64,000 nt of DNA from Woeseia sp. (GTDB taxonomy: Bacteria; Pseudomonadota; Gammaproteobacteria; Steroidobacterales; UBA11654): assembly GCA_019653755.1 (NCBI GenBank), contig BPCL01000007.1, positions 1 to 64,000 on the forward strand. The letters are read 5' to 3'. The stretch's first letter is position 1, and the number at the start of each line of letters is the position of its first letter. Made by a program: the position numbers and the translations under genes. The notes beneath the pieces are model-generated. The model was not told where the DNA came from, made no database searches, and saw only the letters and a program-made list of their open reading frames with translations. Positions 53,274 to 60,243 of this stretch are shown piece after piece.

Positions 53274-55618
53274 TTAAAATTGAAAATTAAACCTAATGCC
53301 AATATTTCGTCCTGGTAAAGGCACCTGATCTTTCACAAAAGATGAATGATTTCTTGCGACTTCATCCAGTAAATTTTTTGCGAAGACAGTAACAAACATC
53401 TCGCTTTCTCCATAGAATATGGGAATTCTTTGAGAAACTTTAAGGTCAAGCATATTGTAAGACTCCGTGGGTGTCTCATTTAATGCAAGTTTTGATTGTG
53501 ATGTTACTTTCCTCATAATCAGTGAAGCACTAGTTCCTTCTTTTGCATAACCCAGAGAAATAATGTGTCGTCTTGGATTGATCCTTGGCACATAAGTCCC
53601 ATCTTTGAACTTTGCATTCACATAATCCATTCCGTATGAAAGCGTCATAGAACCATTGTTCATTTCTACAGATCTACCAATCTCAAACTCATAGCCATTA
53701 AGTTCAGCATCTTTTTGGAGATAGTTTGCCAAAATTAGGCCACCGTGGTCATCATGATCGTCGTGATCGCCTTCATGGTCTTCATCATGGTCATCATCGT
53801 CATGATCTTCATCGTGATGCATCTCATGCTCTTCTTCAGTCTCATCCTGCAAGTAGATGTAATCATCAACATCATTTCTAAAAATTGATGCACTGGCAAA
53901 GAATCCGTCATTTTCATAATTAAGACTAAAATCCAAATTATTTGATGTTTCGGTTTCCAAATTGGTATTACCAACTTCAAAGCGTCCGGTCGATAAATGC
54001 TCGCCATTCATAAACAGCTCAACAGCAGATGGTGCTCTTTTGACTTGAGCTAGACCAATGCTAAAGCTGGTATTTTCATTAATAGATGAACCAAGAGAAA
54101 GGGCGATACTGGTATCGTTGTAATCAATATCATAAGACTCCAGCTCCTCCTCTTCATCGTGATGCTCCTCTTCATCATGATCCTCGTCTTCATCATGATG
54201 CTCTTCTTCTTCATGCGCATGACTAACAGTGCCCCTACGATTGATGCGATCATGTCGAATACCTAGATCAAGATCCAAGCCCATAAAACGTGTTCCCAAA
54301 TAGTAGCCAATCATCTTCTCATTAGATTCTGCTGGATTCATGAAAGCCTCTGCCCCAAGAATGGAGACATCTTCATTCATATTCTGTAACACGAGTTTTT
54401 GTGATAAAGAATTATATTGTGCAAAATCTAAGATCAGACCAAATTCATCGGCATCATTAGAAAATAATGTTGGTCCTTCATCATGATCATCGTGCTCACC
54501 TTCATGGTCTTCATCATGCTCTTCGTCATGGTCATCGTCGTGCTCTTCTTCAGAATGTTGCTCAGTTAATGAATAGTCTGTATTCCTGTAGTAATAATTA
54601 ATTCGATTTACAGGACCATTACTAAGAACATAAGAACCTTCTATATTGAATGTTTCAGAGTCAGTGGTGGAAAAGATTCTTTCTTCTTCGCCATGCTCAT
54701 CATGGCCATCATGCTCTTCTTCATCATGGTCATCGTCGTGATCCTCATCATGACCGCCATGTCCTTCGTGGCCTTCTCCATGAAAAGGTATCCCATACAA
54801 GCTTTCACTGTTTTGGAATGAAGCACCGAAATGCCCCCAATCGCCAGCAGTTGAAAGACCTAATCGAAGGGTCTCAGACTCATAATCTGAATTTTCCAGA
54901 TAAGCAAGATCTTCATCATGATCATCGTGCTCACCTTCATGGTCTTCATCATGCTCTCGTCATGGTCATCGTCGTGCTCTTCTTCAGAATGAATAATTGC
55001 ACCCATGGGAATATCATAGTTATCGAAAGAGCCATCTTTATAAGCTAATGAAATGTTCAAGCCACCTAAATTATCCTTATAGCTGAATTGAGCAACTTCA
55101 CCATCATTTGCAGACTGCGTCTCTAAACCAAGTCGCAAGTCTCGCTCTTTAAAATCTTGTTTTGCAATAGTGTCATCGACGACATTCACTATGCCTCCAA
55201 TTGCACCATTGGAATACATCAGAGATGATGGTCCTCTAACAATTTCAATTTGTTTGACATTATTCATATCAACCTCATTCAAATGATCAGCACCTAAACC
55301 TGAAATATCACGAACAAGCAAGCCATTGTTTAGAACTTTGACCCTGCTCCCAGACATACCCCTAATGATTGGTTGACCAACAGCTGCGCCATAGTCTGAA
55401 GATGATACACCGAGCAAGTTATCAATAGATTCGCCCAAGCTTTGAGTTGGATTTGTCTCCAATTCTTGCTCAGTGATAATATGCAATGGATCCTTTATCT
55501 CATCGCTCGACTGGTTGATATAAGATGAAGTAACTACTACTTCTTCTATTTCATCTGCGATTATATTGTTTGTAATTAAAGCGCTCATTATAAAAAGCGC
55601 CATATGATAGTTTTTCAT
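53274..55618 (-). CDS. TonB-dependent receptor, ZnuD-like, with His/Asp-rich loops (one frameshift)
   Basis: Outer-membrane active transporter. ATG 55618 has a GGAGG site; residues 1-22 are a signal peptide. A TonB-box-like EEVVVTSS follows. The plug domain has GESIDNLLGVSSSDYGAAVG, QPIIRGMSGSRVKVLNN, QIEIVRGPSSLMYSNGAIGG. The barrel ends in a C-terminal aromatic (RFNFQF). Five His/Asp/Glu-rich tracts are inserted (near 54920-54990, 54690-54790, 54480-54560, 54130-54230, 53745-53850), as in the zinc receptor ZnuD but longer. One missing T near 54957 breaks the frame inside the first tract. The spliced length is about 780 residues. A zinc or other divalent-metal substrate is inferred from these tracts. 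Confidence 0.85.
54476..54557 (-). repeat. 82-bp direct repeat, copy A, in the TonB receptor
   Basis: This stretch (from CTTCATCATGATC to TTCAGAATG on plus) is repeated at 54911-54991, identical except for one T. It encodes the acidic-histidine tract SEEEHDDDHDEEHDEDHEGE and its continuation. The flanks differ. Confidence 0.9.
54911..54991 (-). repeat. Direct repeat, copy B, in the TonB receptor
   Basis: Second copy of the 82-bp repeat at 54476-54557, one base shorter: CTCTCG here (around 54957) against CTCTTCG in copy A. That missing base is what puts the receptor gene out of frame. Confidence 0.9.
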
Positions 55619-55966: not shown

Positions 55967-57139
55967 TCAAGACTTAAATTCTATTCCGGCTTTTCTTAGC
56001 CTCGAGATTAACTCATCTCCTAGACCAACAGCAGAAGTTAGGACTCCTCCATATTGATCGCCACCAGGTAAATTATCTGATTTAGCTAAAGCTAAAGCCG
56101 ATTCACATACCAATTTTGAGGTGGATTTATATCCTGGATCTCCCGATCCATAGATTGAACAAGTCTTTTGTTCACCATCCTCAGCATGAGCGATGAAAGT
56201 TGACCTGAACCATCCCTTATCTCTTGCCTCTTTGCTAGGCCCTTCTCCAGGTTTTAACAAGAATGGTCTGACTAAATGTCTTAGTGGAGAGGTAATAACC
56301 ATAACTGCAAATATCAAACCGTAGGAGGTGATTTTGGCTAATTTTTTTGTTTTGAATAAGCCGTATTCACCAAAGGTGAAATCTTTACCGTAGGGGTTTT
56401 TATTTTGCTCCATCAATGCAGCCGATCGTCTCACCACTCTTGTGTTAGCTATAGCCATCATTCCCACACCAGTCCATCCCTCTAATCCCTCTATCTTTTC
56501 AATTTTGAACCCATCTTTTGAGCGTCTTCTTTGTTTATCTGAAACAGTATTCTCGGGATTCAAAATAAAAGGATCTCTCATTTTTTTAGACACATCACCC
56601 ATCGTAAACATGGTTTCTGTTGTTCCTCCAGAAGCTGTTCCAACAGCTTCTTGATAAACATCAACTCGGCTCACAGGCTTATTAAATTGAGAGACTGTAA
56701 AATAAGCACCGATATCTGAAGGAATGGAATCGTAACCACAAGATGGGATAATCCTGACTCCTTTAGATGCAGCTTTTTCATGATGTTGATCAATCATGTC
56801 TCGTACCCAGTGATTCTCTCCAGTAATATCAGTATAGTGCGCTCCTTGCTCTACACAGGCCTGTACCAAAAGAGAACCGTATCTAGCAAAAGGGCCAGCT
56901 GTAGATAAAACCACTTTTGTTTGTTCTGCTAATGCATTCAGAGCTTCAAGGTCTTGCCCGTCTGCAATTAAGATATCGCCTGAAAAGTTTATATCTGATT
57001 TGAGTAGTTCTAATTTTTCCTTATCTCTTCCTGCAATTGCCCAATTTAAATCTGGGTAGTTATTCATAAAATATTTTGCACAAAGCTGACCGGTGAAGCC
57101 CGTCGCCCCGTAGAGAACTATTTCATACTTTTTTTGCAT
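55967..57139 (-). CDS. Saccharopine dehydrogenase-like oxidoreductase
   Basis: NAD(P)-binding protein of the saccharopine dehydrogenase/trans-acting enoyl reductase group. The N-terminal Rossmann motif is YEIVLYGATGFTGQL. Further marks: LNWAIAGRDKEKLELL, VVLSTAGPFARYGSLLVQAC and HYTDITGENHWVRDMID, then IIPSCGYDSIPSDIGAYF. The 390 residues include a hydrophobic stretch (YGLIFAVMVITSPLRHLV). In mycobacteria relatives reduce lipids in trans. It is the first protein gene left of the repeat RNA locus. True substrate unknown. Confidence 0.82.
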   Translation of the reverse strand: MQKKYEIVLYGATGFTGQLCAKYFMNNYPDLNWAIAGRDKEKLELLKSDINFSGDILIADGQDLEALNALAEQTKVVLSTAGPFARYGSLLVQACVEQGAHYTDITGENHWVRDMIDQHHEKAASKGVRIIPSCGYDSIPSDIGAYFTVSQFNKPVSRVDVYQEAVGTASGGTTETMFTMGDVSKKMRDPFILNPENTVSDKQRRRSKDGFKIEKIEGLEGWTGVGMMAIANTRVVRRSAALMEQNKNPYGKDFTFGEYGLFKTKKLAKITSYGLIFAVMVITSPLRHLVRPFLLKPGEGPSKEARDKGWFRSTFIAHAEDGEQKTCSIYGSGDPGYKSTSKLVCESALALAKSDNLPGGDQYGGVLTSAVGLGDELISRLRKAGIEFKS

Positions 57140-57165: not shown

Positions 57166-57190
57166 TAAAAAAAGGGACTGTTAAGTCCCT
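57166..57190 (-). terminator. Rho-independent terminator of the repeat RNA
   Basis: On the minus strand AGGGACT-TAAC-AGTCCCT forms a perfect 7-bp stem with a 4-nt loop (57173-57190), followed directly by a run of six further T's (57167-57172). This is a textbook intrinsic terminator 8 nt past the last repeat copy. On the plus strand the hairpin is followed by GGCTTTTT and would be weaker. Confidence 0.85.
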
Positions 57191-57198
57191 GGCTTTTT

Positions 57199-57529
57199 CG
57201 CGAGCAGATGGTCTTTCGGTTAGTCTGTTTTCCTTCCCATCTGCCTACTTCAACTCTTGGATTTCCCTTTTGGTGTTTCCACCTCCATTTCCATACTTCG
57301 TTTGCTTCTTCGCGGGCAGTTGGTCTTTCGGTTTGTCTGTTTTCCTTCCCTTCTGCCTACTTCAATCTTTGGATTTCCGTTTTGGTGTTTCCACCTCCAT
57401 TTCCATACTTCGCTTGCTTTTTCGCGGGCAGTTGGTCTTTCGGTTTGTCTGTTTTCCTTCCCTTCTGCCTACTTCAATCTTTGGATTTCCCTTTTGGTGT
57501 TTCCACCTCCATTTCCATACTTCGTTTGC
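57199..57529. repeat. Three tandem copies of a 112-bp unit
   Basis: Copies begin at 57199, 57311 and 57423 (each at CGCG), an exact 112-bp period. Copies 2 and 3 differ at very few positions (for example TTTCCG against TTTCCC); copy 1 is the most diverged (CAGATGG for CAGTTGG, CCCATC for CCCTTC). The plus strand is pyrimidine-rich, which leaves all three plus frames open by chance. Confidence 0.95.
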
Positions 57530-57536
57530 AAAGATT

Positions 57537-57564
57537 AATTTAGCAAAGTCCTATATTTTGTCAA
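57537..57564 (-). promoter_or_regulatory. Promoter of the repeat RNA
   Basis: Read on minus: TTGACA (57564-57559, perfect -35), a 16-bp spacer, then TGC-TAAATT (57545-57537), an extended -10. Predicted start is about 57529, the first base of repeat copy 3. It lies just downstream of the quinone reductase-like gene, whose own stop is at 57577. Confidence 0.7.
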
Positions 57565-57576
57565 CCTTTTTTTTAA

Positions 57577-58190
57577 TTATTCTTTTAAGTTTCGTGCGAA
57601 TCTTCTTACCCTTCTCATATGCTTATCAAAAGCTGCATCAGTCATAGTTGGTAAAACAGAATAAAACCTTAGATATTTTGTTTTTAATCCCCCTAATTGG
57701 AATACTGACTTTTTTAATCTTCTGTAGGGAATATTGTCAAATAATGAAAAATTAAAATAACTTAACATTGGCCCTCCATAGGACATGGAGACAATTCCAA
57801 TTTTATTTTTCATTGCTCCAGGAACAGGATATCCATAATTTCCAAAATACTTGCTGTCAGGTAATAAAGACCTATATGAGAAAAACCATTTCGGGTGTAA
57901 AACCCAATCAATCCAATTTTCAATAATTACATTCATTCGTAAATTGTGGCACGCGCCGATCAAAAACATGGCATCTGCATCTTCTAGTCTTTTCCTGTAT
58001 TGCAAGACTATTGCTGGGGGCGGGTTAATGTCGCTTCTATAAAAAGGAAGTTGCTCGCTCTTCATCAAATAAATTAATCAGATCAATCTCATGACCGTTT
58101 TTTCTTAGCTTCATCGATAAACGTATCTCTGACTGAGGCATTAAAAGAATTCTGCGTATTATGATGTCCAAAAATTATACATATTCTCAT
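57577..58190 (-). CDS. Flavodoxin-fold NAD(P)H-quinone reductase-like protein (two frameshifts)
   Basis: FMN or FAD-dependent reductase of the NQO1/KefF/MdaB group. From ATG 58190: MRICIIFGHHNTQNSFNASV, a typical flavodoxin-like start. An extra A near 58100 and a shift near 58065 join it through HEIDLINLFDE to QLPFYRSDINPPPAIV. Then YRKRLEDADAMFLIGACHNL, IENWIDWVLHPKWFF and KIGIVSMSYGGP follow. The spliced length is about 204 residues. The dubious region is 58060-58110. It may be cotranscribed with apt upstream. The reductase call is by family pattern. Confidence 0.68.
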
Positions 58191-58787: not shown

Positions 58788-59207
58788 TTATTTTATTATA
58801 TATACAGGTCTGGTTATTGAGTAAGCCCAATAAATAAATAGAAATTGTAATGGGAGTCTAAAATATAGTAATCCGATTGATATCTCAGGAAAAGCCTCGG
58901 GGTTGATTGCCATATAAATATTAGCCGGATAAACAGAAACTAGTAGAGCAATCAATCCCCATCCGGCTAATTTTCTTAAGGAAGGGATTAGCACACAGAT
59001 ACCACCTAATATTTCAAAAAAGCCACTGATATAAACTGCCTCTGCATGCAAAGGAAAAGCAGGAGGCATAATAGATAAATAAAAGTCAGGATTGATGAAA
59101 TGATCAATGCCAAAATAAACAAAAAATACAGATAGCCCAAACAGGGACAAAATCCTCCACCACTCAGTGGGTAATTTTAATATATTTAATATGTGAGTCA
59201 CTCCCAC
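58788..59207 (-). CDS. DoxX-like membrane protein
   Basis: Inner-membrane protein of 139 residues with four hydrophobic segments. FFVYFGIDHFINPDFYLSIM and FFEILGGICVLIPSLRKLAG are the DoxX family pattern, and LLVSVYPANIYMAINPE follows. Start codon is uncertain: GTG 59207 overlaps the SDR end by 10 nt, GTG 59201 overlaps it by 4 nt (GTGA). The function of such proteins is mostly unknown. Confidence 0.75.
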   Translation of the reverse strand: MGVTHILNILKLPTEWWRILSLFGLSVFFVYFGIDHFINPDFYLSIMPPAFPLHAEAVYISGFFEILGGICVLIPSLRKLAGWGLIALLVSVYPANIYMAINPEAFPEISIGLLYFRLPLQFLFIYWAYSITRPVYIIK

Positions 59208-60222
59208 TCAATGAGATATCCTTGGGCCATCTGCTCACTAGTCGACCATAGTTGCTCAGCCATTGGCTTATCGAATATGTAGTTATCACCACCGACGGTA
59301 ACCGCATTACAGTCCTCAAAATAGGCGCCGCTAACTCCCTTGAGTGCAGGATTAGTAGCCACATAAACCTGAGTGGCAGCCCCCTCTTCGACAGTTTTTG
59401 CAATGAGGTGGCCAAACCAGTCAAAAGCTTTGCGCAGAGCTATAGGGGCGGTGCGAGCAATATTGGTTTTGACCAAACCCGGATGATAACATTTGAAGTC
59501 ACGCTAGAACCCTCCAATCGCGTGGCAAGTTCAAGGGAAAATAAGGCGTTCGCCAACTTGGATCGGCCATAAGCTTCCTGTGAATCGAATACACCTTCAC
59601 CTCGAAGGTTGTCAAAGTCTATTCCCACTGCAGGTGCCTGAACATAAGCAGACATACTACCAACATGAACAATACGACTCTCCTGAGCCTTTTTCAGCAT
59701 GGGCATTAACCTGTTTACCAATATAAAGTGGCCGAGATGATTTACTGCAAATGTCCTCTCGACACCATTCACTAATTCCAATTCACCAAATGTATTTATA
59801 CCTGCATTGCACATGAGAATATCAATGGGATAACCTAGTTTAGTAACTGTATCTGCACATTCTACAATGGAATCTAAGCTAGATAGCTCAAGGGCTACAG
59901 GGGTAGTTTTACCAGGCACACTGGAACAAGCTTTGCTGGCTTTCTCAAGATTCCTACCTGTACCAATAACATGAGCTCCTCTGAGCGCTAAAACCCTCAT
60001 GGTCTCTAATCCTAATCCTGAGTTACAGCCTGTGACTATTGCGGTCTTTCCTGTTAAATCCAATCCGGCCGTGACTTCTTCAGCTGTGGATGTCGCACCA
60101 AAAGGTCCCACGGGATAGTTTTCATCAATACTTACAATGGGCTCATCATCATTATTGTCACAGCCCACTATAACTGGAACTGCCACAGCCGTTGTCCCAT
60201 AAATAAATTGTCTCCTATTCAT
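59198..60222 (-). CDS. Tat-exported lipoprotein short-chain dehydrogenase (one frameshift)
   Basis: Short-chain dehydrogenase/reductase close to retinol dehydrogenase-like and protochlorophyllide-reductase-like proteins. ATG 60222 has an AGGAG site. Its leader starts MNRRQF (twin arginine), has a hydrophobic core (TTAVAVPVIV) and ends in a lipobox at Cys21 (VIVGC). The SDR core has VTGCNSGLGLETM, LMCNAGINTFG, VNHLGHF, GSMSAYV and the catalytic YGRSK. The frame breaks near 59488: a shift restores CYHPGLVKTNIARTAPIAL and reads on to TIGEW-like YLIEWE. The spliced length is about 341 residues. A Tat route implies folding with NAD(P) before export. Confidence 0.75.
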
Positions 60223-60243
60223 TCTTAACACTCCTTTTAATCG

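Follow-up and report, generated by a model that had tools for sequence, protein, structure and literature searches.

Three tandem copies of a 112-nt unit, bracketed by promoter and terminator motifs of their own, look like a real RNA gene of narrow distribution in which one structured module has been tripled. We put the probability at about one half that the locus is a free-standing gene for a small non-coding RNA, acting in trans through its repeated binding modules. The array lies on the minus strand of the window, by which we mean the whole 64,000-nt stretch of DNA analyzed here; the nearest relative is the single-cell genome AG-435-A22. The predicted RNA is an orphan restricted to one lineage: it is new as a sequence family, unusual in its build, and ordinary in kind, being an intergenic regulatory RNA. 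From upstream to downstream, the features of the locus are these:

57577-58190 (-), flavodoxin-like / FMN reductase gene, upstream and co-directional; frameshifted here, intact in AG-435-A22
57559-57564 (-), -35 hexamer TTGACA from the promoter scan; identical in AG-435-A22
57537-57542 (-), -10 hexamer TAAATT with TGC before it (extended -10) from the promoter scan; identical in AG-435-A22
57418-57529 (-), unit 1 of the RNA, with the predicted 5' end at 57529; covariance-model match of 136 bits
57496-57507 (-), hairpin 1 of unit 1, GGUG-GAAA-CACC with a GNRA-type loop, in the predicted fold
57424-57472 (-), stem 2 of unit 1, GU.GGCAG..GG / CC..CUGCC.GC with a large inner loop, in the predicted fold
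57306-57417 (-), unit 2; covariance-model match of 135 bits
57194-57305 (-), unit 3; covariance-model match of 144 bits, two A-A mismatches in the stem now being pairs
57384-57395 and 57272-57283 (-), hairpin 1 in units 2 and 3, in the predicted fold
57312-57360 and 57200-57248 (-), stem 2 in units 2 and 3, in the predicted fold
57166-57190 (-), intrinsic terminator AGGGACT-TAAC-AGTCCCT followed by a T-run, from the terminator scan; identical in AG-435-A22
55967-57139 (-), gene for a protein with a saccharopine dehydrogenase NADP-binding domain (PF03435, E=1.1e-14), downstream and co-directional

The array, its transcription signals and its predicted fold

The three units stand head to tail without gaps at 57194-57529 (-). 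Tandem Repeats Finder (TRF) reports a single array in the window (57192-57529, period 112, 3.0 copies, 94% matches, no indels), with a score of 611 that we count as beyond chance, and this result bears out an initial annotation that had described three minus-strand units of exact 112-nt period. Because the units differ from one another at 3, 7 and 10 positions, the tripling is not a trivial duplication made in assembly. The same annotation had placed a TTGACA / TGC-TAAATT promoter so that transcription would begin at the first repeat base, and a terminator with a 7-bp stem and T-run after the last copy. Our scans recover both elements: a TTGACA-16-TAAATT promoter with TG before the second hexamer (57564-57537, minus strand, 10 of 12 matches), whose predicted start at 57529 is the first base of the repeat, and a 7-bp hairpin at 57190-57173 (-) with a T-run after it. 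The stretch from an A-run through the -35 and -10 hexamers is identical in AG-435-A22. The RNA would thus be driven by its own sigma-70 promoter and ended by its own intrinsic terminator. As predicted, it is 364 nt long and 71% purine, and it carries 19 GGA motifs, namely 18 in the repeats at six per unit and one in the terminator, which are the length and counts first proposed.

In the proposed history, an ancestral module of about 112 nt would have consisted of a short hairpin with a GNRA-type loop, joined by a purine-rich linker to a longer stem with interruptions. The loop of hairpin 1 is GCAA in AG-435-A22 and so retains the GNRA type, and the stem is retained in all four units, that is, the three here and the one in AG-435-A22. 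In unit 3, two A-A mismatches have become A-U and U-A pairs; among the four units, none of the changes is compensatory on both sides of a pair. None of 100 shuffles folds as well as the full RNA (z = -2.7), and single units fold moderately better than their own shuffles (z -1.2 to -2.0). The modeled unit structure is therefore probable as a fold, and covariation does not prove it.

We also considered whether the units might encode a small peptide. The only short ORF common to them runs from ATG to TGA over 14 codons (MEMEVETPKGKSKD), and we reject it because three of its four substitution sites, as read from the alignment, alter the amino acid and because no Shine-Dalgarno sequence lies upstream. 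The plus-strand ORFs of 93-125 aa that overlie the repeats are a by-product of the repeat; AG-435-A22 is without the array.

Conservation in a second genome

When the 11 family genomes were searched at the DNA level, one relative proved to carry the locus: AG-435-A22 (G008, contig CACPJA010000011.1), where the same promoter, a single unit and the same terminator stand between the same two flanking genes, a joint recurrence that we count as beyond chance. Identity between the two genomes is 45/47 in the promoter region, 108/112 in the unit and 28/29 in the terminator region, or about 96% over the cassette. By comparison, fourfold sites are 84% identical in the downstream gene and 85% in apt, and identity falls to 68% in the spacer that separates the terminator from the start codon. 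Pooled, the cassette differs at 7 of 188 positions and the comparison sites at 37 of 238 (Fisher P = 4e-5). Because the cassette diverges less than both the fourfold sites and the spacer, we conclude that promoter, RNA and terminator are under constraint, with an own promoter and an intrinsic terminator conserved beyond the neutral rate. The suggestion that this is a self-contained RNA gene built by tandem duplication of a module is strengthened by these results, with promoter and terminator both intact at the homologous locus.

What selection maintains may be a single-module RNA. The ancestral module would have given rise to the three tandem copies seen here; the tripling was gained in this genome, or it was lost in AG-435-A22, or the array was collapsed in the assembly of AG-435-A22, whose copy number comes from a single cell, so that its one copy could be a collapsed array. 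The unequal copy number in the two genomes, together with the narrow distribution described below, would suit a non-functional tandem duplication or a DNA-level element in an intergenic spacer. We consider that explanation quite unlikely, given that both synonymous sites and the neighboring spacer change faster than the cassette, whose promoter and terminator have stayed intact in both genomes.

Across the 11 family genomes and our samples of the order and class, the cassette is known from these two genomes only. There was no credible further match in the other nine family genomes or in samples of 296 genomes from the order and 369 from the class; plasmid and phage collections gave no match and viral contigs no credible one, the viral match being a chance word inside a phage ORF. 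Covariance matches of 20-27 bits in four family genomes (G001-G003 and G007) fall in protein-coding sequence, part of it valS-like by eye, or are merely short purine-rich words, and we discarded them. No such RNA lies beside the 54-56% relatives of the downstream gene in other members of the genus, or beside the orthologs of the upstream gene in G002 and G009. The RNA would be confined to a narrow lineage within the marine gammaproteobacteria.

GGA content and the absence of CsrA

The initial annotation interpreted the RNA as a decoy for CsrA/RsmA and pointed to Rfam models and to csrA in this genome and its relatives as places to look. The interpretation has a published basis, since Csr RNAs have been recognized through GGA repeats, a promoter and a terminator, and not through sequence, in organisms that possess CsrA (PMC11882849). 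That practice explains how the decoy was inferred and does not carry the inference here. Like CsrB/CsrC and RsmX/Y/Z, this is an intergenic RNA of similar size with its own promoter, its own terminator and repeated GGA motifs, and its size and signals resemble those of CsrB in particular. A search for CsrA (PF02599) was negative for all 11 family genomes, the host genome included, yet positive for E. coli as a control and for 44 of 59 genomes from the order. The family genomes are 64-92% complete, two of them above 90%, so any single absence of CsrA may be a gap, yet eleven cannot reasonably be. Because the host family is without a detectable CsrA gene, the RNA is not a CsrA decoy.

Features of the RNA itself lead in the same direction. 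It has no Rfam match at the gathering threshold, and Csr/Rsm families are absent among covariance matches up to E = 10; matches to Atu_C8 and STnc50 were dismissed as far under the gathering scores and resting mainly on the terminator. The six GGA motifs per unit do not exceed chance, as mononucleotide shuffling gives a mean of 3.96 (P = 0.15) and dinucleotide shuffling one of 4.67 (P = 0.26), and their number follows from the purine-rich composition. In favor of a decoy, 15 of the GGA motifs of the RNA stand in an ANGGA context, which is modestly enriched (5 per unit vs 1.86 in shuffles, P = 0.02). None of the six per unit, however, is predicted to lie entirely within an apical loop, unlike the pattern in CsrB/CsrC and RsmX/Y/Z, from which the exact 112-nt tandem units also set this RNA apart; one GGA straddles the GNRA hairpin, where pairing takes up its first G (P 0.99), and it reads GGC in AG-435-A22. 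Taken together, these points make a CsrA/RsmA decoy highly improbable.

Hfq (PF17209) and ProQ (PF04352) are likewise detected in 0 of 11 family genomes each. The streamlined host lineage has thus apparently lost the classic post-transcriptional regulators CsrA, Hfq and ProQ. For RNA annotation more broadly, counting GGA motifs in a purine-rich RNA is insufficient for calling a CsrA decoy, and composition and the presence of CsrA should be checked first.

A trans-acting RNA or a terminated leader

The main rival to a free-standing gene is that the RNA is the terminated 5' leader of the saccharopine-dehydrogenase-like gene, in which the modules would serve as tandem aptamer-like sensors and decide between termination and readthrough. 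We regard this as possible, if somewhat doubtful. The T-run ends 26-27 nt before the ATG of that gene in both genomes, and the gene is preceded by no other promoter-like site on the minus strand. Such spacing is nothing unusual here, however: of 10 other intergenic terminators in about 414 kb of sampled sequence, 3 stop 19-59 nt short of a start codon in the same direction. The minimum-energy fold pairs AAAAGGGA of unit 1 with the 3' arm of the terminator, UCCCUUUU, as could suit a leader, but the ensemble strongly prefers the terminator hairpin (pair probabilities 0.78-0.99), and the complementary sequence has been lost from unit 2. Moreover, the alternative partner comprises the 3' arm and the U-tract, which would probably emerge too late for an antiterminator in nascent RNA. 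Triple-tandem riboswitches do exist, and the c-di-GMP riboswitch Bc3-5 (PMC4759541) similarly sets three tandem structured modules before a gene. Here, in contrast, the modules match no known aptamer class, a strong terminator follows the module and the relative has a single one; the RNA has no riboswitch match in Rfam, and riboswitch classes are absent among covariance matches up to E = 10.

If the RNA is instead free-standing, the reading we prefer and the one favored by the complete cassette from promoter to terminator and by the constraint on it, it would most likely act in trans by offering several copies of one module to a candidate partner, which would be another RNA or an RNA-binding protein other than CsrA, Hfq or ProQ. 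We infer that it is transcribed, acts in trans and titrates that partner. A target search over 397 translation-start regions gave no complementarity above shuffles (its top match, the antisense ORF of the locus itself, was ignored), and neither did a complementarity scan over about 414 kb, or about 27% of the genome.

One form that a free-standing RNA could take is a sponge for a pyrimidine-rich sRNA, by analogy with Yfr2, although we think this specific form unlikely. Its attraction is the 71% purine composition combined with repeated AAGGGAAGGAAAA, AUGGAGG and GGAAACA stretches that are largely unpaired. GGAAACA is also repeated in a loop of Yfr2-5 (PMC1242208), and the RNAs bound by the purine-rich Yfr2 in Prochlorococcus, Yfr1/Yfr10, have a UCCU motif in common (PMC6778093). 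Both systems thus involve short purine-rich RNAs of streamlined marine bacteria with a GGAAACA loop and a copy number that varies fast. The analogy is weakened by the change of this loop to GGCAACA in AG-435-A22, by the lack of a Yfr2 match in Rfam and of any above-chance complementary stretch in the scanned 27% of the genome, and by the origin of Yfr2 in a different phylum. The arrangement also differs, since each of Yfr2-5 has a gene of its own, far from the others, unlike tandem modules within one transcript.

More tentatively, the locus could represent modular regulatory RNAs of a new class, their strength scaled by tandem amplification of the module, whether they work as a multi-site sponge or as a sensing leader with three modules. 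Provided that it is transcribed and functional, the locus would exemplify RNA regulation amplified by the copying of a module within a transcript, and would do so in streamlined marine bacteria from which the three best-known global RNA-binding regulators are apparently missing.

Several observations concern the genome at large and the surrounding genes. In the window and the sampled stretches, a Shine-Dalgarno-like 4-mer occurs at about 18% of start regions vs 11% in shuffles, which suggests, on rough ORF calls, weak use of Shine-Dalgarno sequences in this genome. The flavodoxin/FMN reductase gene (57577-58190, minus strand) appears to be frameshifted at an A-run, and genes for a TonB-dependent receptor (53274-55618, minus strand) and a short-chain dehydrogenase (59198-60231, minus strand) likewise seem to be interrupted by a frameshift; the three cases reflect either homopolymer errors of long reads or real pseudogenes. 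The TonB-dependent receptor also has long His/Asp/Glu-rich loops, encoded by short tandem repeats with periods of 12-36 nt, that are likely metal-related.
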